This document shows positions 517 to 27,640 of a stretch of 32,813 nucleotides of DNA, in pieces; within the stretch, counting starts at the first letter, position 1; the number at the start of each line of letters is the position of its first letter. The translations under genes were made by a program, and so were the position numbers. The notes beneath the pieces were generated by a model, which did not search any database, had not been told where the DNA came from, and saw only the letters and a list, made by a program, of their open reading frames with translations. Source of the stretch: Hansschlegelia zhihuaiae (GTDB lineage Bacteria; Pseudomonadota; Alphaproteobacteria; Rhizobiales; Methylopilaceae); NCBI RefSeq assembly GCF_004103825.1, contig NZ_RYFI01000020.1:9780-42592 (forward strand). Reading direction: 5' to 3'.

Positions 517-1503
517 TCAGTTCTGCGCCTTGGCCGAGGCGCCGCTTTCGGCGATGACGCGCTTCCAGCTTTCGAGTTCCGACATCAGGCGCTTGCGATG
601 CGCCTCCGGGGTCCGCTCGGCCTCCGGGAAGGTCTTGGTGCCGACGTCGCTGAAGCGCTTGATGATCGACTCGTCCTTCAGGGCGATCAGCAGCGCGTCG
701 TTCAGCTTCTTCACGACGTCGTCCGGCGTGCCCTTGGGGGCGTAGAGACCGTGCCAGATGATGAACTCGAAGCCCTTGAGGCCCGCCTCGTCGAGCGTCG
801 GCAGGTCCTTCAGGGCCGGCAGCCGCTCTTTGGACGACACCGCATAGCCCTTGATCGACTTGGCGTTGACCGGTCCGACCGCATTGGTCGACTGGTCGCA
901 CAGCACGTCGACCTGGCCGCCGATCAAGTCGGTCATGGCCGGCCCGGTGCCGCGATAGCCGACCAGCGTGAACTGCTGTCCGACCGCCTTCTGCAGGAGC
1001 AGCGCGCAGAGATGCGCGTTCGACCCGACGCCGGCATGCGCGACGGTCGTCTTCTGGCCGTCGGCCTTGAGCTTGGCGATGATCTCCTTGGCGTCGTTCG
1101 CGGGGAAATCCTTCTTGGCGGCCAGCACCATCGGCCCGGTGTTGATCAGCCCGAGCGGCTGGAACGCCGTCGCCGTGTCGTAGGTGAGATTGTCGTAGAG
1201 CGAGGCGCTGGCGGGCAGCGCGACGTGGTGGATCAGCAGCGTGTAGCCGTCGGGATCGGCTCGCGCGACCCGGGCCGCGCCGAGCGTGCCGCCGGCGCCC
1301 GTGACGTTCTCGACCACGACCTGCTGGCCGAGCGTCTTGGTCATGGATTCCGCGACGCTGCGCCCGATCATGTCGCTCGGGCCGCCGGCCGAATAGGGCA
1401 CGATCAGCGTGATGACGCGGTTGGGATAGCCCTGCGCCCATGCGGACGAGGCTGCGAGAGCGAGGCCGGCCGCGACGGCCAGCGACTTCAGGACGAGTTT
1501 CAT
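517..1503 (-). CDS. TctC/Bug-family tripartite tricarboxylate transporter binding protein
   Basis: A 328-residue periplasmic solute-binding protein. The start at 1503 gives a clean signal peptide (KLVLKSLAVAAGLALAASSAWAQ, cut at AWA-Q); an upstream in-frame ATG at 1566 would add an arginine-rich stretch and is unlikely. After the signal come features of the Bug/TctC family: YPNRVITLIVPYSAGGPSDM near the mature N-terminus and VENVTGAGG about 45 residues later. The membrane subunits TctA and TctB are not in the window, so the protein is an orphan here. It diverges from the GntR regulator and shares its operator-rich intergenic region, which suggests that it captures sulfolactate or a related acid for the neighbouring suy/slc genes. 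Known sulfolactate clusters include transporters of this type; ligand specificity is inferred. Confidence 0.85.
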   Translation of the reverse strand: MKLVLKSLAVAAGLALAASSAWAQGYPNRVITLIVPYSAGGPSDMIGRSVAESMTKTLGQQVVVENVTGAGGTLGAARVARADPDGYTLLIHHVALPASASLYDNLTYDTATAFQPLGLINTGPMVLAAKKDFPANDAKEIIAKLKADGQKTTVAHAGVGSNAHLCALLLQKAVGQQFTLVGYRGTGPAMTDLIGGQVDVLCDQSTNAVGPVNAKSIKGYAVSSKERLPALKDLPTLDEAGLKGFEFIIWHGLYAPKGTPDDVVKKLNDALLIALKDESIIKRFSDVGTKTFPEAERTPEAHRKRLMSELESWKRVIAESGASAKAQN

Positions 1504-1641
1504 GAGGCCTCCAGGGTTTCGCGTTCCTCGGAACGCCCGAGGCCTCGGCCTCCGGCGGATCCGCATGGCCCATCTCGGCGGCGGCCAGCGAGCCGCCCGT
1601 CCGCGTTCTCCACGGATCGCATGCGGCTATAACGATATCAT

Positions 1642-1657
1642 ATGTCTTATATAATAC
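1642..1657. promoter_or_regulatory. Candidate GntR operator O1
   Basis: The site reads ATGTCTTATATAATAC. Its core GTCTTATATAATAC is an imperfect palindrome of the GT...AC type common for GntR/HutC regulators. The first 13 bases are identical to those of the site ahead of suyA (2716-2728). It lies about 140 bp upstream of the tctC-like start, so it probably overlaps that gene's promoter. Confidence 0.6.
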
Positions 1658-1800
1658 TAGACGCTGATCGCCCGCTTTCGAACGGCTCCGCGCCTTATGA
1701 TGATATAATTTATCGAATGCCTCACCTGTTGAACCGTGGAGGGCCTGAAGGCCCCCTGCGCATCCGGACGGCGGATCGCGCAGGACGCAGACAGCGCACG

Positions 1801-1814
1801 ACTTATATATAAGA
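1801..1814. promoter_or_regulatory. Candidate GntR operator O2
   Basis: CTTATATATAAG (1802-1813) is a perfect 12-bp palindrome with the same CTTAT/ATAAG half-sites as the site ahead of suyA, but with two extra central bases. It lies about 90 bp upstream of the regulator start and could provide autoregulation. The altered spacing makes it a weaker match than O1 and O3. Confidence 0.5.
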
Positions 1815-1904
1815 TATATGATTTAGCAGCCCGTCCGGCTGGCGGCCGCCCGCCGCGTTCGTGTAGCATCTCTCCTGCAAGGGATTCTCGCGAAAGGCCC
1901 GTTC

Positions 1905-2657
1905 ATGACCGCCGCAAGGGCTTCGGCGCAGCAGACGGAGCACAGTGACGCGCTGGGCTTCCGGCCGCTGTACCGTCAGGTCCGCGACACGCTGATACGG
2001 CGCCTCGTCGACCGTGTCTGGGCGCCGGGAGCGCCGCTTCCGAGCGAGATGCAGCTCGCGGCCGAGCTCGGCGTCAGCCAGGGCACCGTACGGAAGGCGC
2101 TCGACGCCATGGCGGCGGAGAACATGGTGGTGCGGCGCCAGGGCCGCGGCACCTTCGTGGCGAAGCACGACGAAGAACGGATCATGTTCCAGTTCTTCAA
2201 GCTCGTCGGCGACGACGGGGTGCGGAGCTTCCCCGCGAGCCGGGTGCTCGGCCTCTCGCAGGGCCGCGCCAACGCCGGCGAGCGCGAGGCGCTGAAGCTC
2301 GCCAAGGACGCGCGGGTCATCCGCATCCGCCGCCTGCGGTCGATCGACGGCGCGCCGGCGCTGGTCGAGGCGATCGCGCTGCCCGAGGCGCTGTTTCCGG
2401 GTTTGGCGACAATGGAGATCCCTAACAATCTCTATGGTCTCTACGCCATGCGCTTCGGCGTGACTGTGGCGAGCACCCGCGAGAAGCTGAAGGCGGTCGC
2501 GGCGTCGCCGAAAGACGCCGAGGCGCTCGGCGTGGCGCCCGGGACGCCGGTGCTGGAGATCGACCGGCTCGCGCTCTCTCTCGAACGGACGCCGGTCGAA
2601 TGGCGGCTCAGCCTCTGCCTGACCGACCGGATGCACTATCTGTCCGAGCTTCGCTGA
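1905..2657 (+). CDS. GntR/HutC-family transcriptional regulator
   Basis: A 250-residue regulator. Residues 20-86 form the GntR winged helix-turn-helix, with LPSEMQLAAELGVSQGTVRK for the helix-turn-helix and RRQGRGTFVA for the wing. Residues of about 95-245 fit a UTRA ligand-binding domain of the HutC subfamily, ending in the typical YLSELR-like tail. It lies between the divergent tctC-like gene and suyA, and AT-rich palindromes flank it on both sides. It is therefore the likely local regulator of sulfolactate uptake and breakdown, with sulfolactate or a pathway intermediate as the probable effector. Family assignment is secure; the ligand and the sign of control are inferred. A GC-rich repeat (CGGCGCC at 2658, GGCGCCG at 2685) just after the stop may be a weak terminator. 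Confidence 0.88.
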   Translation: MTAARASAQQTEHSDALGFRPLYRQVRDTLIRRLVDRVWAPGAPLPSEMQLAAELGVSQGTVRKALDAMAAENMVVRRQGRGTFVAKHDEERIMFQFFKLVGDDGVRSFPASRVLGLSQGRANAGEREALKLAKDARVIRIRRLRSIDGAPALVEAIALPEALFPGLATMEIPNNLYGLYAMRFGVTVASTREKLKAVAASPKDAEALGVAPGTPVLEIDRLALSLERTPVEWRLSLCLTDRMHYLSELR

Positions 2658-2715
2658 CGGCGCCGGGGCCATGCGCCGCACGCGGGGCGCCGGCTGTTGA
2701 CCGCAGCCGAGTCAG

Positions 2716-2730
2716 ATGTCTTATATAAGA
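2716..2730. promoter_or_regulatory. Candidate GntR operator O3 ahead of suyAB
   Basis: TCTTATATAAGA (2719-2730) is a perfect 12-bp palindrome within ATGTCTTATATAAGA. It lies 30 bp before the suyA start, in the short gap after the regulator gene. Its first 13 bases equal those of O1 (1642-1654). Its position next to the suyA start fits repression of the catabolic operon until substrate is present. Confidence 0.65.
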
Positions 2731-2760
2731 TATAAAGCCAAGCAGGGAGACGCCGCCGCC

Positions 2761-3072
2761 ATGAGCAGCAAACCGAACGGGGACGGCCGCAATCCGCATG
2801 TCCTCGCCCACAGCCCGAAGGACAATGTCGCGGTCGCGGTGATCGAGGGGCTGAAGGCCGGCACGCAGGCCTTCGGCGTCGTCACCGAGAACGACACGAC
2901 CTTCGAGGTCGCGGTGAAGCAGGACATCCCGATCGGCCACAAGGTCGCGCTCGCCGATCTCAAGGCCGGCGACACCGCGATCAAGTACGGCCAAGACATC
3001 GGCAAGATCGTCAAGGACGTGGCCAAGGGCGAGCATGTGCATGTGCACAATGCCAAGACGAAGCGCTGGTGA
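2761..3072 (+). CDS. suyA: (2R)-sulfolactate sulfo-lyase, small subunit (SAF domain)
   Basis: A 103-residue protein made of one SAF domain, as found at the N-terminus of UxaA-type altronate dehydratases. The stretch HNPH-like start, [22 protein letters not shown] and the histidine-rich GEHVHVHN end are typical of this domain. A separate SAF protein just ahead of a UxaA-type large subunit is the arrangement of SuyAB, which splits (R)-3-sulfolactate into pyruvate and sulfite in the cytoplasm. The start at 2761 has GGGAGA about ten bases upstream; an earlier ATG at 2716 falls inside the operator and would give an unlikely N-terminus. The gene is 13 bp from suyB and surely co-transcribed. Altronate or galactarate dehydratase is the alternative, but the downstream dehydrogenases favour sulfolactate. 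Confidence 0.85.
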
Positions 3073-3085
3073 GGGGGCCGGACCG

Positions 3086-4366
3086 ATGACCGAGATCAGC
3101 ATGTTCCACGCCGAAGAGGCGAAAAACCCGTTCAGCGGCGGCGCGACCGACCAGCTCGTCACCAAGGCGACGCCGACAGAGCGGGCGTCCGAGAATTTCG
3201 CTTCCGCGACCTTCATGGGCTGGCGGCGCGAGAACGGCCGCGTCGGCGTCCGCAACCACGTGATCATCCTGCCGCTCGACGATCTGTCGAACGCCGCCTG
3301 CGAGTCGGTCGCCAACAACGTCAAGGGAGCGATGGCGCTGCCCCACGCCTATGGCCGTCTGCAGTTCGGCGAGGATCTCGAGATCCATTTCCGCACGCTG
3401 ATCGGCATCGGCTCGAACCCGAACGTCGCGGCCGTGGTGGTGATCGGGATCGAGGACCAGTGGACCAACCGGGTGGTCGAGGGCATCGCCAAGACCGGCA
3501 AGCCGGTCGTGGGCTTCGGCATCGAGGGCCATGGCGACATCGCGACCGTCGCCAAGGCGAGCTACCAGGCCAAGCGCTTCGTGCAGTGGGCGACCGAGCT
3601 GCCGCGCGAGGAGTGCAAGATCTCCGAGCTCTGGGTCTCGACCAAATGCGGCGAGAGCGACACGACGACAGGCCTCTCCTCCTGCCCGACCGTCGGCAAC
3701 ATGTATGACAAGCTGATCCCGCACGGCATCTACGGCGTGTTCGGCGAGACCTCCGAGATCACAGGCGCCGAGCACCTCTGCAAGGAACGTGCGGCCAGCC
3801 CCGAGATCGCCGAGAAGTGGTACAAGATGTGGAAGTCCTATCAGGACGACGTCATCGAGGCTCACAAGACCGACGATCTCTCGGATAGCCAGCCCACCAA
3901 GGGCAACATCGTCGGCGGCCTCACGACGATCGAGGAGAAGGCGCTCGGCAATCTCGAGAAGATCGGCCACGAATGCCGGTATATCGACGCGCTCGAGCCC
4001 GCCGAGGCGCCGGCCAAGGGGCCCGGCCTCTACTATATGGACACGTCCTCGGCGGCCGCCGAATGCGTGACCCTGATGGCGGCGGCGGGCTATGTGGTCC
4101 ACACCTTCCCGACCGGCCAGGGCAACGTCATCGGCAACCCGGTCGTCCCCGTCATCAAGATTTCGGGCAACCCAAAGACCCTGCGCACCATGGGCGAGCA
4201 CATCGACGTCGACGTCACCGGCGTGCTGCGCCGCGACATGACGATCCCGCAGGCCGGCGACGCGCTGATCGACATGATCATCCGCACCGCCAACGGCCGC
4301 CTGACCGCGGCGGAGTCGCTCGGCCACCGCGAATTCGTCATGACGAAGCTCTACCGCAGCGCGTGA
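3086..4366 (+). CDS. suyB: (2R)-sulfolactate sulfo-lyase, large subunit
   Basis: A 426-residue UxaA/GarD-type lyase. Residues 44-62 ([19 protein letters not shown]) and the segment [18 protein letters not shown] at 187-204 match the conserved regions of altronate/galactarate dehydratases, where the Cys-containing motif binds the metal. SuyB is a member of this family that removes sulfite instead of water. The start at 3086 is preceded by GAGGGGG with good spacing; the frame is open further up, but an earlier start would overlap suyA. The first 40 residues (to about FASATF) are a polar extension before the recognised domain. A palindrome-rich gap of 186 bp follows. Assignment to sulfolactate rests on neighbours slcC and comC and on the split SAF subunit. 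Confidence 0.85.
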
Positions 4367-4552
4367 CGCCGCCTGTTCCTCCCTTCTCGCGACAGCGGGG
4401 AGGGTGGCCCCACGCGAAGCGTGGGGCCAGGCGGGGCCTTCGGACGCAAAGCTCCATCCTGCCCGATCCCCACCCGGCCGGGCTTCGCCGCCCGTCCGCC
4501 CTCCCCTTTGAAGGGGGAGGGACGCCATCCGATCGCCTCCCGCAAGGTCCCC
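4367..4552. repeat. GC-rich palindromic intergenic elements between suyB and slcC
   Basis: Two strong hairpins lie inside the operon. The first has a 10-bp stem (GGCCCCACGC, 4406-4415, pairing with 4419-4428) around a GAA loop. The second pairs CCCTCCCC (4499-4506) with GGGGAGGG (4514-4521). Such short palindromic mosaics are common, repeated intergenic elements in Hyphomicrobiales genomes. They could weaken read-through from suyB into slcC or protect the upstream mRNA. No gene is present. Confidence 0.6.
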
Positions 4553-5497
4553 ATGCCCCGCATCGTCATCTCCGAATTCATGGACGAAGCTGCGATCCGT
4601 GAAGGCCTCGCGGGCTTCGACGTGCTCTACGACCCGAAGCTGGTGGACGACCCGGCGGCGCTTGAAGCCGCCGCGGCCGACGCCGATGCGTTGATCGTGC
4701 GCAACCGCACGCAGGTGCGCGGCGCGCTTCTTAACTCGGCTACGAAGCTCAAATGCGTCGGCCGTCTCGGGGTCGGTCTCGACAATATCGACGTCGAGGC
4801 CTGCCGCGCGCGAGGGATCGCGGTGTTCCCGGCGACCGGCGCCAACGACGTCTCGGTCGCGGAATATGTCGTCGGCGCCGCCATACTGCTGCTCCGCGGC
4901 GCCTACGCATCGACCGCCGAGGTCGCGGCCGGAGCCTGGCCGCGCAACGCGCTGTCGAACGGCCGCGAGATCTCGGGCAAGCGGCTCGGCCTCGTCGGCT
5001 ACGGCTCGATCGCGCGCGAGACCGCCCGGCGCGCCGCGGCGCTCGGCATGAGCGTCGCGGCCCACGACCCCTATCTCAAACCCGACGATCCGGCCTGGCG
5101 GCCCGATTTTGGCCCCGTCGAGCCGTTCGCGCTCGACGATCTCGTCGCGACCTCCGACGTCCTCTCGCTCCACGTCCCGCTGACCGACGGCACGCGCGGC
5201 ATGATCGATGCGGCGGCCATTTCCCGCATGAAGCCCGGCGCGATCCTGATCAACGCCGCGCGCGGCGGGGTGGTGGACGAGGCCGCCGTCGCCGCGGCGC
5301 TGAAGTCCGGCGCGCTCGGCGGCGCGGCGCTCGACGTGTTCGACACGGAGCCGCTCAAGGGCGGGGCCGCCAGCGTGTTCGCAGGCTGCCCGAACCTCGT
5401 GCTGACGCCGCACATCGCCGGCGTCACGGCGGAATCGAACGTGCGCGTCTCGGGCGTCACCGCTGCGTCCGTCGCCAAGCATCTCAGGAGCCTCTGA
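4553..5497 (+). CDS. slcC: (S)-sulfolactate dehydrogenase, D-2-hydroxyacid dehydrogenase family
   Basis: A 314-residue NAD-dependent enzyme of the phosphoglycerate dehydrogenase family. It has the nucleotide-binding motif GLVGYGSIA (146-154) followed by the adenosine-ribose binding aspartate in AAHDP. The catalytic triad of the family is visible: R237 in NAARGGVV, E266 in DVFDTEP and H287 in LTPHIAG. In a suyAB cluster with comC, the fitting role is oxidation of (S)-sulfolactate to 3-sulfopyruvate, the first half of a two-enzyme inversion that supplies (R)-sulfolactate to SuyAB. The start at 4553 was chosen because the longer frame runs through the palindromic repeats. The ribosome site is weak (AAGG). 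comC follows after 4 bp. By sequence alone, another 2-hydroxyacid substrate cannot be excluded. Confidence 0.82.
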   Translation: MPRIVISEFMDEAAIREGLAGFDVLYDPKLVDDPAALEAAAADADALIVRNRTQVRGALLNSATKLKCVGRLGVGLDNIDVEACRARGIAVFPATGANDVSVAEYVVGAAILLLRGAYASTAEVAAGAWPRNALSNGREISGKRLGLVGYGSIARETARRAAALGMSVAAHDPYLKPDDPAWRPDFGPVEPFALDDLVATSDVLSLHVPLTDGTRGMIDAAAISRMKPGAILINAARGGVVDEAAVAAALKSGALGGAALDVFDTEPLKGGAASVFAGCPNLVLTPHIAGVTAESNVRVSGVTAASVAKHLRSL

Positions 5498-5501
5498 CCC
5501 C

Positions 5502-6491
5502 ATGCCGATGCTGAGCCTCGACGACGCCCACGCGCTGGTCTCGGCCGCGCTGAGGCGCAACGGCGCGAACGAGGCGAACGCCGCGAGCGTCGCGCGCGCC
5601 CTCGTCGGAGCCGAGGCCGACGGGCTGAAGGGGCACGGGCTTTCGCGCGTGCCGACCTATTGCGGGCAGCTGCGGTCGAAGAAGGCGCTCGGCGACGTCG
5701 CGCCCGTCCTGTCGCGGCCGCGGCCCGGCGCGCTCGTCATCGACGCCGCCCACGGCTTCGCCTATCCGGCGCTCGACCTCGCGATCGAGGTGCTGCCAGA
5801 GGCCGCCCGCGTGCAGGGAATCGCGGCCGCCTCAATCTTCCGCTCACATCACTGCGGCGCCGCCGGACGCCCGGTCGAGGCGCTGGCCGACGCCGGGCTG
5901 GTCGCGCTGCTGTTCGCCAACACGCCGGCCGCCATGGCCCCCTGGGGCGGCTCGAAGGCGGTGTTCGGCACCGACCCGATCGCCTTCGCCTGCCCGCTCG
6001 CCGGCAAGCCGCCGATCGTGGTGGACCTGTCGCTGTCGAAGGTCGCGCGCGGCAACATCCTGGCCGCAAAGCAGCGCGGCGAGGCGATCCCGGGCGACTG
6101 GGCCTTCGATTCCGAAGGCCGGCCGACCACCGATCCCGACGCCGCGCTCGCCGGGACCATGGCCCCGATGGGCGAGGCCAAGGGCGTCGCGCTCGCGCTG
6201 ATGGTCGAGCTGCTCGCCGCCGGCCTGACGGGCGCGAACTATGCGGCCGACGCATCCTCCTTCCTGGACGACAAGGGCGGCCCGCCCTCGACCGGCCAGC
6301 TGATCGTGGCGATCGACCCGGAGGCCTTCTCGTCCGGCGCGCCCGAGCGTTTCGCGACGCTCGCCGCTTCCATCGAGGCGCAGGACGGCGCAAGGCTGCC
6401 CGGCGCCCGCAGGCTGGCGCTGCGTCAGACCGCGGCGCGCGACGGCCTCAAGGTCTCCGACCAGATCATCTCACAGATCGAAGCCGCCTGA
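5502..6491 (+). CDS. comC: (2R)-3-sulfolactate dehydrogenase, Ldh2/ComC family
   Basis: A 329-residue member of the malate/L-sulfolactate/ureidoglycolate dehydrogenase (Ldh2) family. Diagnostic segments are DGLKGHGLSRVPTYC (40-54), FRSHHCGAAGRP (113-124) with the catalytic-type histidine pair, and the FGTDPIAFACP region with the GG(S)K stretch that binds cofactor. ComC reduces sulfopyruvate to (R)-sulfolactate, usually with NADPH. Together with SlcC it would convert (S)-sulfolactate through sulfopyruvate to the (R) form used by SuyAB. AGGAG lies inside the slcC end, 11 bases before the start, so translation is probably coupled. Specificity is inferred from context; the family is clear. Confidence 0.82.
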   Translation: MPMLSLDDAHALVSAALRRNGANEANAASVARALVGAEADGLKGHGLSRVPTYCGQLRSKKALGDVAPVLSRPRPGALVIDAAHGFAYPALDLAIEVLPEAARVQGIAAASIFRSHHCGAAGRPVEALADAGLVALLFANTPAAMAPWGGSKAVFGTDPIAFACPLAGKPPIVVDLSLSKVARGNILAAKQRGEAIPGDWAFDSEGRPTTDPDAALAGTMAPMGEAKGVALALMVELLAAGLTGANYAADASSFLDDKGGPPSTGQLIVAIDPEAFSSGAPERFATLAASIEAQDGARLPGARRLALRQTAARDGLKVSDQIISQIEAA

Positions 6492-6638: not shown

Positions 6639-7424
6639 ATGAGCCTCAAGTCCAAGACCGCCGTCGTGACCGGATCGACCAGCGGCATCGGTCTCGCGAT
6701 CGCCCGCGGCCTGGCCCGCGACGGCGCGAACGTCGTCATCAACGGCTTCGGCGAGCCGGACGCGATCGAGAAGGCGCGCGCCGGCGTCGAGTCGGAGTTC
6801 GGCGTCCGCGCCGTCCACTCCCCCGCCGACATGACCAAGCCCGACGAGATCGACGCTATGATCGCGCTCGCGGTGGAGACCTTCGGCTCCGTCGACGTGC
6901 TCGTGAACAACGCCGGGATCCAGTACGTCTCGCCGATCGAGGAGTTCCCTCCCGCACAGTGGGAGAAGATCATCGCGCTCAACCTGTCGGCCGTGTTCTA
7001 CGCGATGCGGGCCGCGATCCCGCATATGAAGAAGGCCGGCTGGGGCCGCATCATCTCGACGGCCTCAGCGCATTCGCTCGTCGCATCGCCCTTCAAGTCG
7101 GCCTATGTGGCGGCGAAGCACGGCGTCGCCGGCCTCACCAAGACCGCCGCGCTTGAGCTCGCGACCCACAAGATCACGGTGAACTGCATCTCGCCGGGCT
7201 ATGTCTGGACGCCGCTGGTCGAGGCGCAGATTCCGGACACGATGAAATCGCGGGGGATGACCAAGGAGCAGGTCATCAACGACGTGCTGCTCGCCGCGCA
7301 GCCGACCAAGGAGTTCGTGACCGTCGACCAGGTGGCGGCGCTCGCGGTCTTCCTGTGCTCCGACGCCGCCTCAAACGTCACGGGCGCCAACCTGTCGATG
7401 GACGGCGGTTGGACGGCCGGCTGA
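6639..7424 (+). CDS. 3-hydroxybutyrate dehydrogenase, SDR family
   Basis: A 261-residue short-chain dehydrogenase. It shows the cofactor motif TGSTSGIG (11-18), NNAG (90-93) and the catalytic S143, Y156 and K160 (SAYVAAK). The whole sequence resembles (R)-3-hydroxybutyrate dehydrogenase, including INGFGE after the first strand, NNAGIQYVSPIEEFP, SAHSLVASPFKSAYVAAKHGV and the DGGWTAG end. It would oxidise 3-hydroxybutyrate to acetoacetate with NAD during use of polyhydroxybutyrate. GGGAGGAG precedes the start at 6639, 147 bp after comC, so it may have its own promoter and need not belong to sulfolactate breakdown. Confidence 0.85.
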   Translation: MSLKSKTAVVTGSTSGIGLAIARGLARDGANVVINGFGEPDAIEKARAGVESEFGVRAVHSPADMTKPDEIDAMIALAVETFGSVDVLVNNAGIQYVSPIEEFPPAQWEKIIALNLSAVFYAMRAAIPHMKKAGWGRIISTASAHSLVASPFKSAYVAAKHGVAGLTKTAALELATHKITVNCISPGYVWTPLVEAQIPDTMKSRGMTKEQVINDVLLAAQPTKEFVTVDQVAALAVFLCSDAASNVTGANLSMDGGWTAG

Positions 7425-7442: not shown

Positions 7443-8846
7443 TCAGCCGCCGACCGCGCGCAGGGCGACGCCGGCGAGCGCGCAGGCCGCGAGCGTCGCG
7501 GTCATGCCGATCTTGAAACGCAGCATCGCGACCATGGCGGCGGCCGCGAGCAGCGCGGCGCTCCAGTCGATCGAGGCGAGGACCGGCAGGTCGGGGCCGA
7601 AACCCATCGGCCGGACCTCGCGGAACACGACGTGCAGCGCGAACCAGACCGCGAGGTTGAGGATCACCCCGACCACCGCCGCGGTGACGGCCGAGAGCGC
7701 GGCGAAGAGCCGCCGGTTCGAGCGCAGCGCCTCGACGTAAGGAGCGCCGAGGAAGATCCAGAGGAAGCAGGGCGCGAACGTCACCCATGTGGTGAGCAGC
7801 GCGCCAAGCGCGCCGGCGACGACCGGATCTAGGGCGCCCGGATCCCGATAGGCCGCGAGGAAGCCTACGAACTGCGTCACCATGATCAGCGGGCCGGGCG
7901 TGGTCTCGGCGAGGCCGAGCCCGTCGACCATCTCGCCGGGCTGCAGCCAGCCGAAGGTCTCGACCGCGGCCTGGGCGACATAGGCGAGCACGGCATAGGC
8001 GCCGCCGAAGGTCACGACCGCCATCGAGCTGAAGAATGCGCCGACATGCGTCCAGACGCTGTCCGGCCCGGTCAGAACGAGGAGCGCGACCACCGGGCCG
8101 AGCCAGATCGGCAGCCAGACGGCCAGGACCTTCATCGCCCGCGACATGGACGGCTCGGCATGGGCGAGTTCGCCGCGGGCGAACATCTCGTCCACGATCC
8201 CGGTCGCCTGCGCTCCGGCGGAGGCGCCATGGCCACCGCCGCCAGCGAACAGATCCGGCCGCCGCCTTGCGCCGACCCAGCCGACGATCCCGGCGAGCAG
8301 GATGATGATCGGGAACGGGATCTTGAACAGACAGATGCCGATAAAGGACGCCGCCGCGATCGCCATCATGGCGCGGTTCCTCAGCGCCCGACGTCCGATC
8401 CGCAGCACCGCCTCCACCACGACGGCGAGCACGGCCGCCTTGACGCCGAAGAACACGGCGTCGACCAGCGGCGCGTCGCGGTAGAGCGCGTAGAACAGGC
8501 TGAGCGCGAGCATGACGATCGCGCCGGGCAGCACGAACAGCAGTCCGGCGGCGACGCCGCCGGCCGTCCGGTGCATCAGCCAGCCGATATAGACCGCGAG
8601 CTGTTGGGCCTCGGGGCCAGGCAACAACATGCAGTAGTTGAGCGCGTGCAGGAACCGCTCCTCGCCGATCCAGCCGCGCCGCTCGACGAGTTCGCGGTGC
8701 ATCAGGGCGATCTGCCCGGCCGGCCCGCCAAAGCTCAGGAGCCCGATGCGGGCCCAGATACGGAAAGTCTCTCCAAATGTGGGGACGACCGACCGCGGAT
8801 GCTGCGTGGCGGCCGGCGGCGCGTCGATGTCGATGCGGGAAGACAT
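7443..8846 (-). CDS. chrA: Chromate transporter, long ChrA type
   Basis: A 467-residue inner-membrane protein with two homologous CHR halves. The first half has LLSFGGPAGQIALMHRELVE soon after the N-terminus and a PGPEAQQLAVYIGW segment. The second half has TFGGAYAVLAYVAQ and ETTPGPLIMVTQFVGF. These are the repeated FGG and PGP motifs of the CHR family, which exports chromate and has been linked to sulfate-like oxyanions. Many hydrophobic segments are visible. The start at 8846 gives a short cytosolic lead (MSSRIDIDAPP) before the first domain; an open extension to 9032 lacks domain features. No chrB or chrF regulator is adjacent. It stands alone between a convergent and a divergent neighbour. 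Confidence 0.88.
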   Translation of the reverse strand: MSSRIDIDAPPAATQHPRSVVPTFGETFRIWARIGLLSFGGPAGQIALMHRELVERRGWIGEERFLHALNYCMLLPGPEAQQLAVYIGWLMHRTAGGVAAGLLFVLPGAIVMLALSLFYALYRDAPLVDAVFFGVKAAVLAVVVEAVLRIGRRALRNRAMMAIAAASFIGICLFKIPFPIIILLAGIVGWVGARRRPDLFAGGGGHGASAGAQATGIVDEMFARGELAHAEPSMSRAMKVLAVWLPIWLGPVVALLVLTGPDSVWTHVGAFFSSMAVVTFGGAYAVLAYVAQAAVETFGWLQPGEMVDGLGLAETTPGPLIMVTQFVGFLAAYRDPGALDPVVAGALGALLTTWVTFAPCFLWIFLGAPYVEALRSNRRLFAALSAVTAAVVGVILNLAVWFALHVVFREVRPMGFGPDLPVLASIDWSAALLAAAAMVAMLRFKIGMTATLAACALAGVALRAVGG

Positions 8847-9057: not shown

Positions 9058-9942
9058 ATGATCGGCTTCATCGGGCTGGGCAATATGGGCGGGCCGATGG
9101 CCGCGAATCTTGCGATGGCCGGCCACGAGGTCCTCGGCTTCGACGTGACGGCGGCGGCCGTCGATCGGGCCGCCGCCGCGGGCGTCTCAGCCGCCCGCTC
9201 CATCGAGGAAGCGGCCGCCGAGGCCGACATCGTCGTCACCATGCTGCCGAGCGGGAGCCATCTGGTCTCGGTCTACGAGACGCTGGTCGCGGTCGCGCGA
9301 CCCGACGCGCTGCTGATCGACTGCTCGACCGTCGACGTCGCGTCCTGCGTGAGGGCGCACGAGATGGCGCGCGCGAACGGCCTCGCCTCGATCGACGCCC
9401 CGGTCTCGGGCGGCGTCAGCGGGGCCGCGGCCGCGACCCTGACCTTCATGGTCGGGGGCGACGAGGCGGCGGTGGAGCGCGCCCGCCCGGCGCTCGAGGC
9501 GATGGGCCGGCGCGTCGTCCATTGCGGCGTGGCGGGAGCCGGCCAGGCGGCCAAGACCTGCAACAACATGGTCCTCGGCATCTCGATGATCGCGCTCGCC
9601 GAGGCCTTCACGCTCGGCGAGCGCCTCAACCTGTCGCACCAGGCGCTGTTCGACGTGCTGTCGACCTCTTCGGGCCAGTGCTGGGCGCTCGTCAATCACT
9701 GCCCGGTCCCGGGACCGGTGCCGGCGAGCGCCGCCAATCACGGCTTCCGGCCGGGCTTCGCGGCAGCGCTCATGCTGAAGGACCTGAGGCTCGCCCGCGA
9801 CGCCGCCGACGCCGCTGGCGTCGACATTCCTCTCGGACGCCAGGCCGCAGGCCTCTACGAGCAGTTCAACGCCCTCGACGAGGAGGGTCTCGACTACGCG
9901 GCGATCATCAAGCTGGTGCGCGAGCGCTCCGGGATGAAGTGA
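9058..9942 (+). CDS. 3-hydroxyisobutyrate dehydrogenase-like NAD(P)-dependent enzyme
   Basis: A 294-residue beta-hydroxyacid dehydrogenase. It has the N-terminal Rossmann motif GFIGLGNMGGPMAANL (3-18), the substrate-binding DAPVSGGVSGA (113-123) and the catalytic lysine K166 in GQAAKTCNNM. The length equals that of 3-hydroxyisobutyrate dehydrogenase (MmsB), which makes methylmalonate semialdehyde in valine breakdown. Other family members act on tartronate semialdehyde or glyoxylate, and no valine-pathway neighbour is present to settle the matter. GGGAG lies nine bases before the ATG. The 211 bp upstream separate it from divergent chrA and show no other gene. It ends 7 bp from the convergent alcohol dehydrogenase. 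Confidence 0.85.
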   Translation: MIGFIGLGNMGGPMAANLAMAGHEVLGFDVTAAAVDRAAAAGVSAARSIEEAAAEADIVVTMLPSGSHLVSVYETLVAVARPDALLIDCSTVDVASCVRAHEMARANGLASIDAPVSGGVSGAAAATLTFMVGGDEAAVERARPALEAMGRRVVHCGVAGAGQAAKTCNNMVLGISMIALAEAFTLGERLNLSHQALFDVLSTSSGQCWALVNHCPVPGPVPASAANHGFRPGFAAALMLKDLRLARDAADAAGVDIPLGRQAAGLYEQFNALDEEGLDYAAIIKLVRERSGMK

Positions 9943-12915: not shown

Positions 12916-15770
<2,855 letters not shown>

Positions 15771-15774
<4 letters not shown>

Positions 15775-16133
15775 TTGGAGATGTCCGCATAGGCCGCCTC
15801 GTCCATCAGGCCATCCATGGCCGAGACGTCGTCGAGCCGCATCCGGTAGAGCCAGCCGGCGCCCTGGGGGTCCGCCCCGATCGACGCCGGGTCCGCAGCC
15901 GCGGCCTCGTTGACCTCGACCACCTCGCCGGACAACGGGGCGTAGACGTCGGACGCCGCCTTGACGGACTCGACGACCGCCGCGGCGGAGCCTTTGGTCA
16001 GCTTCGCTCCCGGCTTCGGCAGTTCGACATAGACGAGGTCGCCGAGTTGTTCGGCCGCGAAGGCGGTGATGCCGACGGTCGCGACGTCGCCGTCGAGCTG
16101 CAGCCATTCATGGTCTTCGGTGAAACGCAGCAT
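15771..16133 (-). CDS. gcvH: Glycine cleavage system H protein
   Basis: A 120-residue lipoyl carrier. The conserved ESVKA places the lipoyl lysine at K58, and [21 protein letters not shown] precedes it as in other H proteins. It shuttles the aminomethyl group between P, T and L proteins. The last four bases overlap the gcvP start, and 36 bp separate it from gcvT upstream. The L protein (lipoamide dehydrogenase) is not in the window and is probably shared with other complexes. Confidence 0.97.
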
Positions 16134-16169
16134 GATGAGGTCCTTCGCGTAAGGGGCGGTCTTGGAGGC

Positions 16170-17339
16170 TCAGCGCCGAAAGCGGGCGGCGACGAAAGGC
16201 GTCGGCGCGACGGTGACGGCGAGACGGCGGCCGCGCAGATCGGCGAAGACCCGCGATCCGGGGTCAGCGAGGCGCGCCGGCAGGTAGCCCATGGCGACGG
16301 GAGTCTGCAGCGTGGGCCCGAAGCCGCCGGAGGTCACGACCCCGATCGGCTCGTCGCCAGCCTCGTCGGCGAAGAGCGCCGCGCCGGCCCGCACGGGCGC
16401 CCGGCCCTCGGGAAGCAGTCCCACCCGCCGGCGCAACGGACCCGACCGAAGTTCCGCAAGGACGCGTTCGGCGCCCAGGAAGCCGCCCTCGCGCGCGCCG
16501 CCGGCGCGCCGCGCCGCCGGGATCGCCCAGGCCAGGCCGGCCTCCACCGGGGTCGTGGTCGCGTCGATGTCGGAGCCGTAAAGGCAAAGTCCCGCCTCAA
16601 GGCGAAGCGAGTCGCGGGCCGCAAGCCCGATGGGGGCGACGTTTTCGTCATCGAGCAGCGCCGCCGCGATCTCTTCGGCGCGATTCGAAGGAAGCGAAAT
16701 CTCGAATCCGTCTTCGCCCGTGTAGCCGGAGCGAGACGCCAGGCAGGCCGCGCCCCGGATTTCGATCCCGCGCACGTCCATGAAGCGCATGGTCGCGACC
16801 TGCGGGGCGAGGCGCGCGAGCGCGCCTTCGGCGCCCGGTCCCTGAAGGGCGATCAAGCAGCGGTCGCGCGGCGCGACCTCGACGTCCGCCGGCAGGTTCT
16901 CGCGCAGATGCGCCTCGTCGGCCGCTTTCATGGCGGCGTTGACGACCAGCGTCAGCCTGTCGGGAAGCCGTGCGACCATCAGATCGTCGAGGATTCCTCC
17001 CGATCGATCGGTGAACAGCGCATAGCGCTGCCGTCCCGGCTTCAAGCCGACGACGTCGACCGGAACCAGCGTCTCGAGCGCCGCCGCGACGTCGCCGACA
17101 TCGCCCGCGCGCGGCCGCAGCTCGATCTGGCCCATGTGGGAGACGTCGAACAGGCCGACGGCGGAGCGGGTGTGGATGTGCTCCTTCAGCACGCCCGCCG
17201 GATAGCTGAGCGGCATCTCGTAGCCGGCGAAAGGGCAAAACCTGGCCCCGAGCCGAACGTGGAGCTCATAAAGCGGGGTGCGCCTGGGCGCGCCCGCCGG
17301 CAGGGCGTGGCAGGAGGCAGACTGAACGTTCTGGCTCAT
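16170..17339 (-). CDS. gcvT: Aminomethyltransferase, glycine cleavage T protein
   Basis: A 389-residue protein with RTPLYELHVRLGARFCPFAGYEMPLSYPAGV at the start (folate-binding GcvT domain), GLFDVSHMGQIELR, and the C-terminal barrel domain with GFGPTLQTPVAMGYL. It transfers the methylene group from GcvH to tetrahydrofolate and releases ammonia. The N-terminal 20 residues are somewhat longer than in E. coli. It is the first gene after the tandem glycine riboswitch, so glycine should raise its expression. Confidence 0.95.
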   Translation of the reverse strand: MSQNVQSASCHALPAGAPRRTPLYELHVRLGARFCPFAGYEMPLSYPAGVLKEHIHTRSAVGLFDVSHMGQIELRPRAGDVGDVAAALETLVPVDVVGLKPGRQRYALFTDRSGGILDDLMVARLPDRLTLVVNAAMKAADEAHLRENLPADVEVAPRDRCLIALQGPGAEGALARLAPQVATMRFMDVRGIEIRGAACLASRSGYTGEDGFEISLPSNRAEEIAAALLDDENVAPIGLAARDSLRLEAGLCLYGSDIDATTTPVEAGLAWAIPAARRAGGAREGGFLGAERVLAELRSGPLRRRVGLLPEGRAPVRAGAALFADEAGDEPIGVVTSGGFGPTLQTPVAMGYLPARLADPGSRVFADLRGRRLAVTVAPTPFVAARFRR

Positions 17340-17843: not shown

Positions 17844-19055
17844 TCACGGTCGCGACGACTTTGACAACCTTCCGAGCCCGGCGGGATCGACTGCCGTGGG
17901 GGCCAACGTCTCTGCATTTGCGGGAGACGACCGATCTTCCGGCCGGAGAATTGACAGAGGCGCGCCCGTCGACGGCCGGGACCGCAGCGACCGCAAGAGG
18001 TGGAGAATGGATCCCTCCATCAGAACCGCGACGCCGAACCGGGCGCCCAAGGCGATGCCGAGCAGCGCCACCGGCCACGACAGCGCGAGCATTGATCCGG
18101 CGGTCAGACCCTGGCCGATCGTGCAACCACCACAGATGACGCCGCCCACGCCCATTAGCGTCGCCCCGCCCAGATGACGTTTCATCTCGAGGGGATCATC
18201 GAATGCCTCCCAGCGGAATTCATCTGCGCGCCGCGCCGCGAGCCATGCGCCGCACACGACTCCGCACACCGAACCCACGCCGAAGTCCAGCAGGACATCG
18301 CGATCGAAAGCGACTCCAAAGAGCGCCCGTGCGACAGGCGACACGAACGTCAGGCTCTGCGGAACGATCGGCCCCACGAATTCGTCGGCGAGGAATCGCG
18401 TCGCAGCCCAGCCGGCGACGACGCCGAGCCCAAGCGTCACGCCCCCCGCCACCAGCCGCGGCGTCCGGCGAAGCCGCCGGTCCGTCACGGCGAGCAGCAG
18501 AAGGCCGCCGGCGATCGCGAGCGCGATCCAGATCCGGGCGTCAAAGCCGAACGCCGCTTCGGCGAGACCCGGAATGTCCGCGCGACCGGGCGGCGGCGGC
18601 GCGTATGCGACGCTCTCGATGACGCCGATCCTGAAGGGCGCAAGCACGCCGCGAAGCGTCGCATAGGCGGCCACGCCGAATATCAGCATGACGACGACGC
18701 TCCTGAGATCGCCTCCTCCGAGACGTATGAGGGAGCCGAAAGCGCAGGTCCCGACGAGCGCCATTCCAAACCCGAACAGCAGGCCGCCGAGGGCGACGCC
18801 GAGCCAGGGGACCGCGACCGAAACATAAGTCGTCTGCGTCGGGTCGATCAGGCCCGAGAGCACGAGGGCCTGCGTCCCCGCGATCGCCACGGCCGCCGCA
18901 AGGCCGAAGACGCGAAGGCGCCGCGTGTCCGAGCCGACGAAGGCGTCCTCCAGCGCGCCGAAGGTGCAAAGCCGTGCTCGCCTGACGGCGAAGCCGACGA
19001 TCGCGCCGATCGCAAGACCGGCGAGCGCGAGCCATGACGGCCCGATGAACTCCAT
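17844..19055 (-). CDS. YeeE/YedE-family sulfur-compound transporter (SoxT-like)
   Basis: A 403-residue membrane protein with about nine to ten hydrophobic segments. The conserved cysteine motifs of the YeeE/YedE (TsuA) family are present: RRARLCTFGALEDA, VGTCAFGSLIRLGGG and GGVICGGCTIGQGLTAGS. E. coli YeeE imports thiosulfate, and YeeE-like proteins within sox loci (SoxT) import sulfur compounds for oxidation or for signalling to an ArsR-type regulator. The gene lies 79 bp after soxR on the same strand, which suits either role. A polar tail of about 55 residues follows the last membrane segment. The substrate (thiosulfate, persulfide or another) is inferred. Confidence 0.88.
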   Translation of the reverse strand: MEFIGPSWLALAGLAIGAIVGFAVRRARLCTFGALEDAFVGSDTRRLRVFGLAAAVAIAGTQALVLSGLIDPTQTTYVSVAVPWLGVALGGLLFGFGMALVGTCAFGSLIRLGGGDLRSVVVMLIFGVAAYATLRGVLAPFRIGVIESVAYAPPPPGRADIPGLAEAAFGFDARIWIALAIAGGLLLLAVTDRRLRRTPRLVAGGVTLGLGVVAGWAATRFLADEFVGPIVPQSLTFVSPVARALFGVAFDRDVLLDFGVGSVCGVVCGAWLAARRADEFRWEAFDDPLEMKRHLGGATLMGVGGVICGGCTIGQGLTAGSMLALSWPVALLGIALGARFGVAVLMEGSILHLLRSLRSRPSTGAPLSILRPEDRSSPANAETLAPTAVDPAGLGRLSKSSRP

Positions 19056-19134
19056 TGCGCCCGGTCCTCCCGTCCCTACGGCCGGCGCGGAGCTTTTCCC
19101 GCTCCTTGTCGCCAGCCCGGCGCGCTAAGCAGTC

Positions 19135-19503
19135 TTACGCTTTCTGATCCCTGCCGCAGAAAATATCGTAGATAACCGAAATGATCCGCCGGACGTCGTC
19201 GTTCGCCAGACTGTAGTAGATCGCCTTGCCGTCGCGGCGCGTCGTCACGAGCTCTTCAAGCCTCAGCCGAGCTAGCTGCTGCGAAACGCTCGCCTGACGC
19301 AGGGACAGAATGTTCTCGAGCTCGGTCACCGATCGTTCGCCCTCGGCCAGGAGACAGAGCAGCAGTAGCCTGCTTTCGTGTGAGAGGGCCTTGAGAAAGT
19401 CGCTCGCGTCGCGCGCGTTGCGCATGAGCGCGTCGAGCTCTGGCGAAACTTCCGGACCGTCACGCAGCTCCTCCTCGATCTTGGCCGATACGATTGAAGG
19501 CAT
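19135..19503 (-). CDS. soxR: ArsR-family persulfide-type regulator SoxR (SqrR/BigR-like)
   Basis: A 122-residue winged-helix repressor. The helix-turn-helix is around residues 58-86 (LENILSLRQASVSQQLARLR) with the wing RRDGKAIYYSL. It has exactly two cysteines, C50 in LLLLCLLAEGE and C116 in YDIFCGRD. Their spacing of 66 residues equals that of the two reactive cysteines recalled for Rhodobacter SqrR (C41 and C107), which form a polysulfide bridge when reactive sulfur is present. The gene lies 16 bp after soxS and diverges from soxV. It probably represses the sox promoters until sulfide or thiosulfate is available. This soxR is unrelated to the MerR-type SoxR of enteric bacteria. Confidence 0.9.
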   Translation of the reverse strand: MPSIVSAKIEEELRDGPEVSPELDALMRNARDASDFLKALSHESRLLLLCLLAEGERSVTELENILSLRQASVSQQLARLRLEELVTTRRDGKAIYYSLANDDVRRIISVIYDIFCGRDQKA

Positions 19504-19519
19504 CTGAAATGATCCTCGA

Positions 19520-24650: not shown

Positions 24651-26345
24651 ATGATATCCCGCCGAGAATTCGTCGTCGCGGCGACGGCCGCAGCGTCTCT
24701 GGCGACCGCCTCCGGCCGAAGCCTCGCCCAGGTCGCGTCGAGCGGAAAGCTTACCCAGGACGACCTCTTGCGCTTCGATGCCACGGGCAAGGTGACGCTA
24801 CTCCACATCACCGATACGCACGCGCAGCTCAACCCCGTTTACTTCCGCGAACCGTCGGTAAACCTGGGCGTCGGCGAGACCAAGGGACTGCCGCCCCACG
24901 TCACCGGCGCGGCCTTTCTCGACCAGTTCAAGATCAAGCCGGGCAGCCCCCAGGCCTATGCGCTGACGAGCGAGGATTTCGTCGCGCTCGCCAAGGCCTA
25001 TGGCCGAATGGGCGGGTTCGACCGCATCGCCGCGCTCGTGAAGGCGATCCGCGCCGAGCGGGGGGACGACAACGTGCTTCTTCTCGCTGGCGGCGATGAG
25101 CTGCAGGGCAGCTGGACGTCCCTGAAGACCCGAGGCGAGGACGTGCTACAGGCGCTCAAGGCGCTGAAGCTCGACGCGATGGTCGGCCACTGGGAGTTCA
25201 CCTATGGCGCGGACCGCGTGAAGGAGATCGCCGAGGCGGGTCCCTTCGCCTTCCTCGCGCAGAACATCCGCAGCCTCGAATGGCAGGAAGAGGTCTTTCC
25301 CGCCGCCAAGGTCTTCGAGCGGGGCGGCGCGAAGATCGCGGTCATCGGGCAGGCCTATCCGCGCACGCCGATCGCGAACCCCCGCTGGATGACGCCGGAC
25401 TGGGAGTTCGGCCTGCGCGAGGACGACCTGCGCAGACAGGTCGAGAGCGCACGCTCAGGGGGCGCCGACGTCGTCGTCCTGCTCTCGCACAACGGTTTCG
25501 ACGTCGACCGCAAGCTGGCGCGCCGCGTCAAAGGACTCGACGTCATCCTCACCGCCCACACCCATGACGCGATCCCGATGGCGGTCGAGGTCGACAAGAC
25601 GCTGCTGATCGCTTCCGGCTCGCACGGCAAGTTCCTGTCGCGGCTCGATCTCGACGTGAAGGACGGCAGGGTCGCGGGCTATCGCTTCGGCCTGATTCCG
25701 GTCTTCTCCGACGCAATCGCGCCGGACGCCGAGATGACGAAGCTCGTCGCGGACGCCCGCGCTCCCTACGCCGCAGAACTCGCACGGGAGGTCGGGCGGA
25801 CCGAGAGCGTCCTTTACCGCCGCGGCAATTTCAACGGCACCCTCGACGACGTCATTTGCCAGGCGATGATTGAACAGCGCGATGTCGAGATCGCGCTGTC
25901 GCCCGCCTTCCGCTGGGGCACGAGCCTTCTGCCAGGCGATCCGATCACCTTCGAGGCGATCTCGAACGCGACCGCCGTGACCTACCCGAACTGCTACCGC
26001 TCCGCCATGACCGGCAAGCAGTTCAAGGACGTGCTCGAGGACATCGCCGACAACATCTTCAACCCCGACCCCTACTTCCAGGGCGGCGGCGACATGGTGC
26101 GCCTCGGAGGCGTCGGCTACGCGATCGACGTCGCTCAGCCGATCGGCAAGCGCATCTCGAACCTCACTTTGCTCAGGTCCGGCGCGCCGATCGAGGCCGA
26201 CAGGTCCTACACGGTCGCGGGTTGGGCGAGCGTCAACCAGAACGTCGAGGGACCGCCGATCTGGGAAGTGGTCGAGCGCCACGTCGCCGACCGCAAGACG
26301 ATCAAGGTCGAGCCTAACGACGCCATCAAGGTCACCGGCGCATGA
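24651..26345 (+). CDS. soxB: S-sulfosulfanyl-L-cysteine sulfohydrolase SoxB
   Basis: A 564-residue periplasmic hydrolase of the calcineurin/5'-nucleotidase fold. The twin-arginine signal is SRREFVVAATAAASL. Metal-binding motifs are ITDTHAQ (53-59), GDELQGSW, GHWEFTYG, LLSHNGFD and LTAHTHD, which hold the dimanganese site. It removes sulfate from the SoxY-bound thiosulfonate. The start at 24651 follows GGAGAG with good spacing; ATG at 24633 would place six residues before the signal. Its stop overlaps a weak ATG ahead of soxC. Confidence 0.95.
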   Translation: MISRREFVVAATAAASLATASGRSLAQVASSGKLTQDDLLRFDATGKVTLLHITDTHAQLNPVYFREPSVNLGVGETKGLPPHVTGAAFLDQFKIKPGSPQAYALTSEDFVALAKAYGRMGGFDRIAALVKAIRAERGDDNVLLLAGGDELQGSWTSLKTRGEDVLQALKALKLDAMVGHWEFTYGADRVKEIAEAGPFAFLAQNIRSLEWQEEVFPAAKVFERGGAKIAVIGQAYPRTPIANPRWMTPDWEFGLREDDLRRQVESARSGGADVVVLLSHNGFDVDRKLARRVKGLDVILTAHTHDAIPMAVEVDKTLLIASGSHGKFLSRLDLDVKDGRVAGYRFGLIPVFSDAIAPDAEMTKLVADARAPYAAELAREVGRTESVLYRRGNFNGTLDDVICQAMIEQRDVEIALSPAFRWGTSLLPGDPITFEAISNATAVTYPNCYRSAMTGKQFKDVLEDIADNIFNPDPYFQGGGDMVRLGGVGYAIDVAQPIGKRISNLTLLRSGAPIEADRSYTVAGWASVNQNVEGPPIWEVVERHVADRKTIKVEPNDAIKVTGA

Positions 26346-26374
26346 CGCGGCCATCGATCCAAGGAGACAGCGCG

Positions 26375-27640
26375 ATGAGCGAACCCGTCACGCTCAACAG
26401 GCGGCGCGTCCTCAATCTCGGCATCGCCGGAGCGGGCGCGGCCGCGCTTACGCCGGCGCTCGCGGCGGCGCAGACGCCGGATCCGCTGATCGTCGAGAAA
26501 CAGGAGTGGACCCAGTATCTCGGCGAGGGCGTCAACGCGAAGCCCTACGGCGTGCCGTCGAAGTTCGAGAAGGAGGTCGTGCGCCGCGAGGTTGAGTGGC
26601 TGACCGCCAGCCGCCAAAGTTCGGTGTCCTTCACGCCGCTCCACGCGCTCGACGGGATCATCACGCCGAACGGGCTGTGCTTCGTGCGCCATCATGGCGG
26701 CGAGGCGGAGATCGACCCGGCGAAACACCGCTTCATGATCAACGGCATGGTGGACAAGCCGCTCGTCTTCACAATGGAGGACGTCAAGCGGATGCCGGGG
26801 CGCGTGAACCGCGTCTACTTCCTCGAATGCGCCGCGAACAGCGGCATGGAGTGGCGCGGGGCGCAGCTGAACGGCTGCCAGTTCACCCACGGCATGATCC
26901 ACAACGTGGTCTACACCGGCGTGCCCCTGAAGGCCTTTCTGAATGAGGCCGGGGTCAGCCCGAAGGGCAAATGGGTGCTCGCCGAAGGCGCCGACGCGTC
27001 TGCGATGACGCGCTCGATCCCGCTCGAGAAGGCGATGGACGACTGTCTTGTGGCCTGGGCCATGAACGGAGAGGCGCTGCGGCCCGAGCAGGGCTATCCG
27101 CTGCGGCTCGTCGTGCCCGGTTGGGAAGGCAACATGTGGGTCAAGTGGCTGCGCCGCGTCGAGGTCGGCGACCAGCCCTGGGCGCAGCGCGAGGAGACGT
27201 CGAAATACACGGATCTGCTGGCCGACGGCCGGTCGCGCCAGCACACCTTCCTGATGGACGCCAAGTCCGTCGTCACCAATCCGAGCCCGCAGGCCCCCCT
27301 CAAATCCAAGGGGCCGAACGTGCTGTCAGGCGTCGCCTGGTCGGGACGGGGAACGATCAAGCGCGTCGACGTCTCGATGGACGGGGGACGCAACTGGCGC
27401 ACGGCGCGCATCGAGGGACCGAATTTCCCGCGCGCCATGGCGCGCTTCTACGTCGACTTCGACTGGAACGGCCAGGAGCTCATGCTGCAGTCGCGGGCGA
27501 TGGACGACAGCGGCTACGTGCAGCCCACCAAGGACGAGCTCCGGAAATATCGCGGCTCGAACTCAATCTACCACAACAACGGCATCCAGACCTGGCTGGT
27601 GCGGCCGGACGGGAGCGCGGAAAATGTCGAAGTCAGCTAA
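26375..27640 (+). CDS. soxC: Sulfane dehydrogenase molybdenum subunit SoxC
   Basis: A 421-residue protein of the sulfite-oxidase family. It has a twin-arginine-type signal (NRRRVLNLGIAGAGAAAL) and the molybdenum-ligand cysteine C152 in FLECAANSGMEW. The dimerisation domain follows, with GRGTIKRVDVSMDGGRNWRT. SoxC and SoxD oxidise SoxY-bound sulfane sulfur, so the pathway can proceed fully to sulfate without sulfur globules. A perfect AAGGAG lies eight bases before the start at 26375, which is preferred over the ATG at 26342 overlapping soxB. The end overlaps soxD by 17 bp. Confidence 0.95.
   Translation: MSEPVTLNRRRVLNLGIAGAGAAALTPALAAAQTPDPLIVEKQEWTQYLGEGVNAKPYGVPSKFEKEVVRREVEWLTASRQSSVSFTPLHALDGIITPNGLCFVRHHGGEAEIDPAKHRFMINGMVDKPLVFTMEDVKRMPGRVNRVYFLECAANSGMEWRGAQLNGCQFTHGMIHNVVYTGVPLKAFLNEAGVSPKGKWVLAEGADASAMTRSIPLEKAMDDCLVAWAMNGEALRPEQGYPLRLVVPGWEGNMWVKWLRRVEVGDQPWAQREETSKYTDLLADGRSRQHTFLMDAKSVVTNPSPQAPLKSKGPNVLSGVAWSGRGTIKRVDVSMDGGRNWRTARIEGPNFPRAMARFYVDFDWNGQELMLQSRAMDDSGYVQPTKDELRKYRGSNSIYHNNGIQTWLVRPDGSAENVEVS

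Follow-up and report, generated by a model that had tools for sequence, protein, structure and literature searches.

A probable sulfolactate utilisation locus with a strongly conserved predicted operator in Hansschlegelia zhihuaiae

The alphaproteobacterium Hansschlegelia zhihuaiae carries a group of genes that resembles the known sulfolactate utilisation systems of bacteria. The genes lie at positions 517-6491 of a stretch of 32,813 nucleotides (the window; C13:9780-42592 of the 4.62-Mb draft genome, where C1, C13, C34, C45 and C59 are contigs of this genome). Their order is tctC / gntR-suyA-suyB-slcC-comC, and all are intact open frames (Table 1). The genes named by the initial annotation of the window, suyA, suyB, slcC and an Ldh2/ComC dehydrogenase, were confirmed as open frames with Pfam matches. 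As in SuyAB, the SAF-type small subunit and the UxaA-type large subunit are encoded by two separate genes. The SAF match of the small subunit reaches 23.3 bits (Pfam cut-off 21), measured on the longer frame 2716-3072. A start at 2761 is preferred to the listed start at 2716 because an exact palindrome occupies 2719-2730 and a purine-rich stretch precedes the ATG at 2761. For suyB the start is the ATG at 3086, and queries with SuyB used 3089-4366.

Three lines of evidence favour the assignment to sulfolactate that the initial annotation also made: the position of SuyB in a tree, the absence of three family cysteines, and the linkage of the SlcC and ComC clades to SuyB. In a tree of 31 rows, a branch with 100/100 support separates 22 SuyB rows, among them those of Cupriavidus pinatubonensis and Paracoccus, from the rest; the reference rows are homologues from strains related to the described ones and not the assayed proteins themselves. 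On the other side stand UxaA and GarD of Escherichia coli with seven further members, and the long branches among these non-SuyB rows are unsure according to a warning of the tool. SuyB thus does not group with altronate or galactarate dehydratases, the outcome that the initial annotation had named as decisive against it, and it scores 136.6 bits against a curated galactarate dehydratase cut-off of 730.85. Four cysteines have been described as conserved in the superfamily with the exception of sulfolactate sulfo-lyase (PMC6336799, accessible part). In the alignment, three of these columns hold Cys in 0/22 SuyB rows and in 7/9 other members (the exceptions are Variovorax and Haladaptatus), and the fourth, Cys187, is kept in 31/31 rows. 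Because three of the four columns hold no Cys in any of the 22 rows, SuyB counts as lacking the four-cysteine set. All 22 rows have Arg90, where UxaA and GarD have Cys, which makes Arg90 a candidate sulfonate contact.

Searches of plasmids place SuyB in a clade of 59.5-87% identity (13 of 316 records), with the next record at 39%. SuyB is 64% identical to a C. pinatubonensis protein adjoining hpsN and hpsO (strain HN-2 locus) and 78% identical to a protein of Paracoccus versutus, whose neighbours are a hisD-annotated gene (HpsN-like by context), a sulfate exporter and a sulfite oxidase. A SuyAB-like pair on a plasmid of Variovorax sp. PBL-E5 (L087, 5544-10307) has a SuyB only 39% identical that also lacks the three cysteines and has Arg90 and Arg382 in common with SuyB. 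The pair comes with a hydroxyacid dehydrogenase, an Ldh2 protein and a TctC of its own, with a GntR gene nearby, and the set may be a sister system.

The gene neighbourhoods were compared in 84 loci (L003-L086), 1.2 Mb in total, which are close relatives by choice. A contig scan gave at least 596 pattern matches; the best 80 of the 586 relatives among the matches listed were kept, and four plasmid loci were picked by hand. With thresholds of at least 55% identity for SlcC and at least 45% for ComC, SlcC is found near suyB in 72 of the 84 loci, ComC in 76 and both in 71. Neither is found in seven loci, four of them on stretches shorter than 9 kb. Among the remaining three, the P. versutus plasmid carries both genes at a greater distance, and the relatives in Rhodococcus koreensis, at 43 and 39% identity, fall below threshold. 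On plasmids, the eight with SlcC at 58.8% identity or more are the same as the eight with the best ComC (at least 59%), and SuyB is at least 77% identical in all eight; in the plasmids ranked next, identity falls to 40% for SlcC and to 49% or less for ComC. SlcC is therefore placed in a 2-hydroxyacid dehydrogenase clade linked to SuyB, a comparison that did not include the protein of Chromohalobacter salexigens.

The locus is also marked by a palindrome. The exact sequence TCTTATATAAGA lies upstream of suyA; with up to two mismatches there are three sites in the window and none in 100 shuffles. A genome-wide search allowing one mismatch found it at two places, both in this locus (reversed-pattern control: one place). 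Within 900 bases upstream of suyB, it is exact in 54/84 loci and present with at most one mismatch in 76/84. The rest of the 1.2 Mb holds 14 sites with at most one mismatch, three of them exact: nine precede a GntR gene, one precedes a TctC gene and four were not assigned to a gene. Of the 84 loci, 69 contain a GntR gene (at least 40% identity, over 60% of its length), and every one of these has the site. Seven loci have the site and no GntR gene in the stretch, although one of them, L028, appears to have an 82% GntR further out; eight lack both, and in no locus is the GntR gene present where the site is absent (Fisher p 1.5e-7, ignoring kinship). P. versutus has a site with one mismatch in the TctC-TctB promoter, between the two genes, and Methylobacterium radiotolerans has two exact ones in the interval from suyA to a TauE gene. 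Since the sites adjoin TctC, suyA and TauE genes, the receptor, the lyase and in places the exporter appear to be under one switch. GntR is proposed to be the repressor of the locus, acting at a predicted operator that is strongly conserved. In the literature searched, which included the accessible part of PMC4334477 and left most subscription papers outside its coverage, no description of this operator was found, nor any regulator reported to control suyAB through this site. In five loci (L046, L047, L053, L068 and L079), suyAB and ComC are present but the operator, the GntR gene and a close SlcC are all missing; they may represent a form of the locus under different control.

Gene identity, clade membership and the co-occurrence of regulator and operator were computed. 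From these we infer substrate, stereochemistry, repression, effector, operon structure and sulfite fate, and the genes very probably form a sulfolactate utilisation locus. In the proposed scheme, the TctC receptor would bind 3-sulfolactate, with membrane subunits supplied from elsewhere in the genome. SlcC would oxidise (S)-sulfolactate to sulfopyruvate, ComC would reduce sulfopyruvate to (R)-sulfolactate, and SuyAB would remove sulfite from (R)-sulfolactate and leave pyruvate. Following the published model, both enantiomers would be used through SlcC and ComC. The HutC-type GntR would repress tctC, its own gene and suyAB-slcC-comC via the TCTTATATAAGA palindromes and would be released probably by sulfolactate or sulfopyruvate. 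Export or oxidation of sulfite would fall to genes elsewhere, possibly those of the sox cluster.

Several observations weigh against this interpretation. The SlcC and ComC families span many functions, and the window proteins reach no NCBIfam equivalog: SlcC matches broad families only, and ComC scores 179.9 bits against the cut-off of 500 for the L-sulfolactate dehydrogenase equivalog NF040650, for which reason the enzyme is named ComC-like by clade and context. On the plasmid of Rhodobacteraceae SC52, a SuyB of 76% identity is found with a ComC relative of only 49% and with no close SlcC among those listed. The same core palindrome has been printed for SdhR, another HutC regulator (PMC4494728, in the part available), and the conservation of the operator partly reflects common descent because the 84 loci were deliberately chosen as close relatives. 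The initial annotation had called the locus complete. That wording does not hold, since TctA and TctB are not in the locus, the receptor stands alone, and no exporter was recognised there.

Transport and the fate of sulfite would depend on other parts of the genome. The window TctC is 59% identical to a P. versutus TctC adjoining slcC- and comC-like genes. Five TctA proteins are encoded elsewhere in the genome; the one closest to P. versutus TctA (63%), at C34:80742, is a candidate partner of the orphan receptor. The earlier statement that the window has no exporter was not contradicted: none of nine TauE-family matches in the genome is on the contig of the window, and PF03601 has no matches genome-wide. 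The parallel statement that it has no sulfite dehydrogenase was contradicted by soxC, which exceeds the cut-off of TIGR04555. This gene belongs to a sox cluster at window positions 17844-30427 with genes for a YeeE/YedE-type sulfur transporter, an ArsR regulator and CcdA-like and thioredoxin-like proteins. A flavocytochrome-c-type flavoprotein and a DsrE protein are encoded beyond the soxD-like gene, and soxYZ were assigned by position and sequence alone. In a roseobacter, the sox cluster has been tied to the oxidation of sulfite and thiosulfate (PMC4334477, accessible part). H. zhihuaiae has a second soxC with a soxD-like frame (C1:316418-317623), 46% identical to the window soxC and closest, among five compared, to the soxC beside a succinate dehydrogenase-like (SDH-like) set in Methylobacterium nodulans (52%). 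SoxCD acts on sulfane sulfur, and for this reason the sox system, 22 kb away, is only a possible sink for the released sulfite. Among 150 relatives, sox and suy are both present in 20 (10.4 expected, Fisher p 1.1e-4; by genus p 0.005). The idea of one functional island is not generally supported: the two lie within 30 kb only in H. zhihuaiae itself (22 kb) and in one other genome of the genus, G001 (28 kb), whose SoxC is 49% identical to the window SoxC. Proximity may be hidden by contig ends, as many of the 150 genomes are drafts.

Table 1. Genes and predicted sites of the window, with positions counted from its first letter
Feature	Position	Strand	Basis
TctC-type solute-binding receptor, SlcH-like	517..1503	-	Pfam TctC 192.6 bits
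Operator-like site, 1 mismatch, upstream of tctC	1645..1656	unstranded	motif search
Operator-like site, 2 mismatches, upstream of GntR gene; weakest of three	1803..1814	unstranded	motif search
GntR regulator, HutC type (UTRA domain)	1905..2657	+	Pfam UTRA 110.4, GntR 72.6 bits
Exact palindrome TCTTATATAAGA, upstream of suyA	2719..2730	unstranded	motif search
suyA, SAF-type small subunit, 103 residues	2761..3072	+	start chosen from sequence
suyB, UxaA/GarD-family large subunit, probable sulfolactate sulfo-lyase	3086..4366	+	Pfam GD_AH_C 272.7 bits; tree; cysteine columns
slcC, D-2-hydroxyacid dehydrogenase, proposed (S)-sulfolactate dehydrogenase	4553..5497	+	Pfam 2-Hacid_dh_C 185.9 bits; clade linked to SuyB
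comC, Ldh2-family dehydrogenase, proposed (R)-sulfolactate dehydrogenase	5502..6491	+	Pfam Ldh_2 322.1 bits; clade linked to SuyB
soxX	21995-22630		above cut-off
soxA	22627-23481		above cut-off
soxB	24633-26345		above cut-off
soxC, in sox cluster, outside suy operon	26342..27640	+	TIGR04555 'sulfite dehydrogenase' 633.8 bits, cut-off 420
Cytochrome c, soxD-like	27624-28298		after soxC

A second operon of the same genome provides a further lead. In Methylobacterium and Paracoccus, the neighbours of suyAB include SDH-like and two-subunit fumarase-like genes; at 45% identity or more to the M. radiotolerans proteins, the flavoprotein is found in 22 of the 84 loci, fumB in 19 and fumA in 14. In H. 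zhihuaiae the set, which encloses a TauE gene, occupies C45:148753-154285 (region read, C45:148753-155180), and gntR is divergent from sdhB-sdhD-sdhC-tauE-fumA-fumB and a gene for a flavin adenine dinucleotide flavoprotein. The GntR of this operon is 40% identical to that of the window, and no operator site within two mismatches was found at the operon. Its flavoprotein keeps His242, Arg286, His354 and Arg399 of SdhA (E. coli numbering), residues that we take to have functional roles, and has Glu in place of Thr254 and Cys in place of His45. A separate SdhA relative, 53% identical to E. coli SdhA, is encoded on C59.

The flavoprotein occurs in 20 of the 150 relatives, 17 of which have suyB (4.9 expected) and 18 xsc (5.7 expected). 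Because xsc co-occurs equally, the association with suyB may largely be that of a shared guild, and co-occurrence was dropped as proof that the flavoprotein feeds SuyAB. Among xsc-positive genomes an association with suyB persists: suyB is present in 15/18 with the flavoprotein and in 7/25 without it (p 0.0005, ignoring kinship). The flavoprotein was also found on 18 plasmids, six of them with a SuyB of the clade (M. radiotolerans twice, Methylobacterium oryzae, P. versutus, Paracoccus ferrooxidans and Rhodococcus jostii). Seven further contexts all include a gene for a tripartite tricarboxylate transporter (TTT), a tripartite ATP-independent periplasmic (TRAP)-type transporter or a dicarboxylate symporter, and two include sulfite dehydrogenase or oxidase genes. 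TauE is present in five (THAF37, MPC6, NT-26, M. nodulans and Haloarcula); Paracoccus seriniphilus has a YeiH gene at the edge only, and Sulfitobacter S190 has no exporter in view. Of the seven, Haloarcula alone shows a SuyAB-like pair; the large subunit of this pair is 32% identical to that of the window and has Arg90 and Gln344, and the haloarchaeal operon also has an argininosuccinate-lyase-family gene.

These gene sets raise the possibility, about which we hold rather more doubt than confidence, that the suy locus is an arm of a wider sulfonate network and that the C45 operon serves to break down a C4 dicarboxylate bearing a sulfonate group, with sulfosuccinate as the simplest candidate. 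Dehydrogenation of sulfosuccinate would give sulfofumarate. Hydration on the sulfonated carbon would then yield oxaloacetate and sulfite directly, or hydration on the other carbon would yield 3-sulfomalate, which a SuyAB-type lyase could split. Sulfosuccinates are used as surfactants and dispersants, and the lead, if true, would supply genes for their desulfonation. No paper joining sulfosuccinate with pathway terms was found in the literature searched, with subscription papers outside its coverage.

The same operon bears on the substrate of SuyAB, which might mainly serve another beta-sulfonated hydroxy acid, such as 3-sulfomalate made from sulfosuccinate via the C45 operon, with sulfolactate as a minor substrate. 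The frequency of the flavoprotein in suyB-bearing relatives and near suyB in the 84 loci speaks for this, but the equally strong association with xsc and the several such operons without SuyAB in view speak against it. The C45 operon moreover lies on a different contig from suy and lacks the operator, and SuyB belongs to the clade of SuyB from clusters described for the use of 2,3-dihydroxypropane-1-sulfonate (DHPS) or sulfolactate, so that this alternative is considered improbable. A sugar-acid dehydratase (for altronate, galactarate or the like), with dehydrogenases acting on ordinary hydroxy acids, would fit the placement of the protein in the UxaA/GarD family by Pfam and NCBIfam and the split SAF and UxaA pairs that also adjoin 2-keto-3-deoxygluconate permease genes; the SuyB tree, the three lost cysteines and the link of the SuyB clade to hpsN/hpsO, TauE or sulfate-exporter genes make it very unlikely. 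That SlcC and ComC supply sulfopyruvate to a decarboxylase-Xsc route with SuyAB secondary is hardly credible, because the Xsc found above cut-off (C34:23461-25188) lies on a different contig, surrounded by SucCD-like and acetate-kinase-like genes, and because the compared loci link SlcC and ComC with suyAB and not with xsc, although no search aimed at ComDE was made. The wider region C34:12000-31999, where TTT genes are also near Xsc, is perhaps a sulfoacetate-type cluster.

Three further genes were considered and rejected as parts of the sulfolactate locus. Across the 84 loci, the short-chain dehydrogenase/reductase at 6639-7424 (a 3-hydroxybutyrate dehydrogenase, above cut-off) has matches of at most 37% identity, ChrA (7443-8846) has none, and the 3-hydroxyisobutyrate dehydrogenase-family gene (9058-9942) has a single match of 28%. 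The latter was also rejected as a sulfolactaldehyde reductase (169.8 bits, cut-off 348). Glycine cleavage genes (GcvP, GcvT) occupy 12916-17339, between the suy and sox clusters.

The locus adds Hansschlegelia to the bacteria that may mineralise sulfolactate. Its predicted operator offers a simple way to recognise the regulon in alphaproteobacterial sequences, and it connects the receptor with the lyase and, in some species, with the exporter. The pathway itself is already known, as the enzymes SlcC and ComC have been reported to be raised on sulfolactate and on sulfofucose (PMC10507020 and PMC12421959, both seen as excerpts). In C. salexigens, the SlcC-ComC-SuyAB pathway operates with the TTT transporter SlcHFG (Denger and Cook 2010, as cited in excerpts of PMC5812351 and PMC12421959), and the same enzymes have been described in Taurinivorans muris (PMC10507020). 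Judged from these excerpts, the window resembles the SlcHFG systems in its two dehydrogenases, its split lyase and a TctC-type receptor nearby, but differs from them in its orphan TctC, its gene order and the lack of a recognised exporter gene. In C. pinatubonensis JMP134, the cluster hpsRNOUPsuyAB serves DHPS through HpsN (PMC11382572, accessible part), and its SuyAB is homologous to that of the window. In contrast to that cluster, the best HpsN match in the Hansschlegelia genome is only 38% identical; an HpsN route into the locus was therefore rejected, and there is no evident DHPS feed. For the regulator, the nearest comparison is SdhR (motif TCTTATGTCTTATATAAGACATAAGA; PMC4494728, in the part available), which belongs to the same HutC-type subfamily and has the same 12-base core, whereas the window sites are shorter and are tied to sulfolactate genes.

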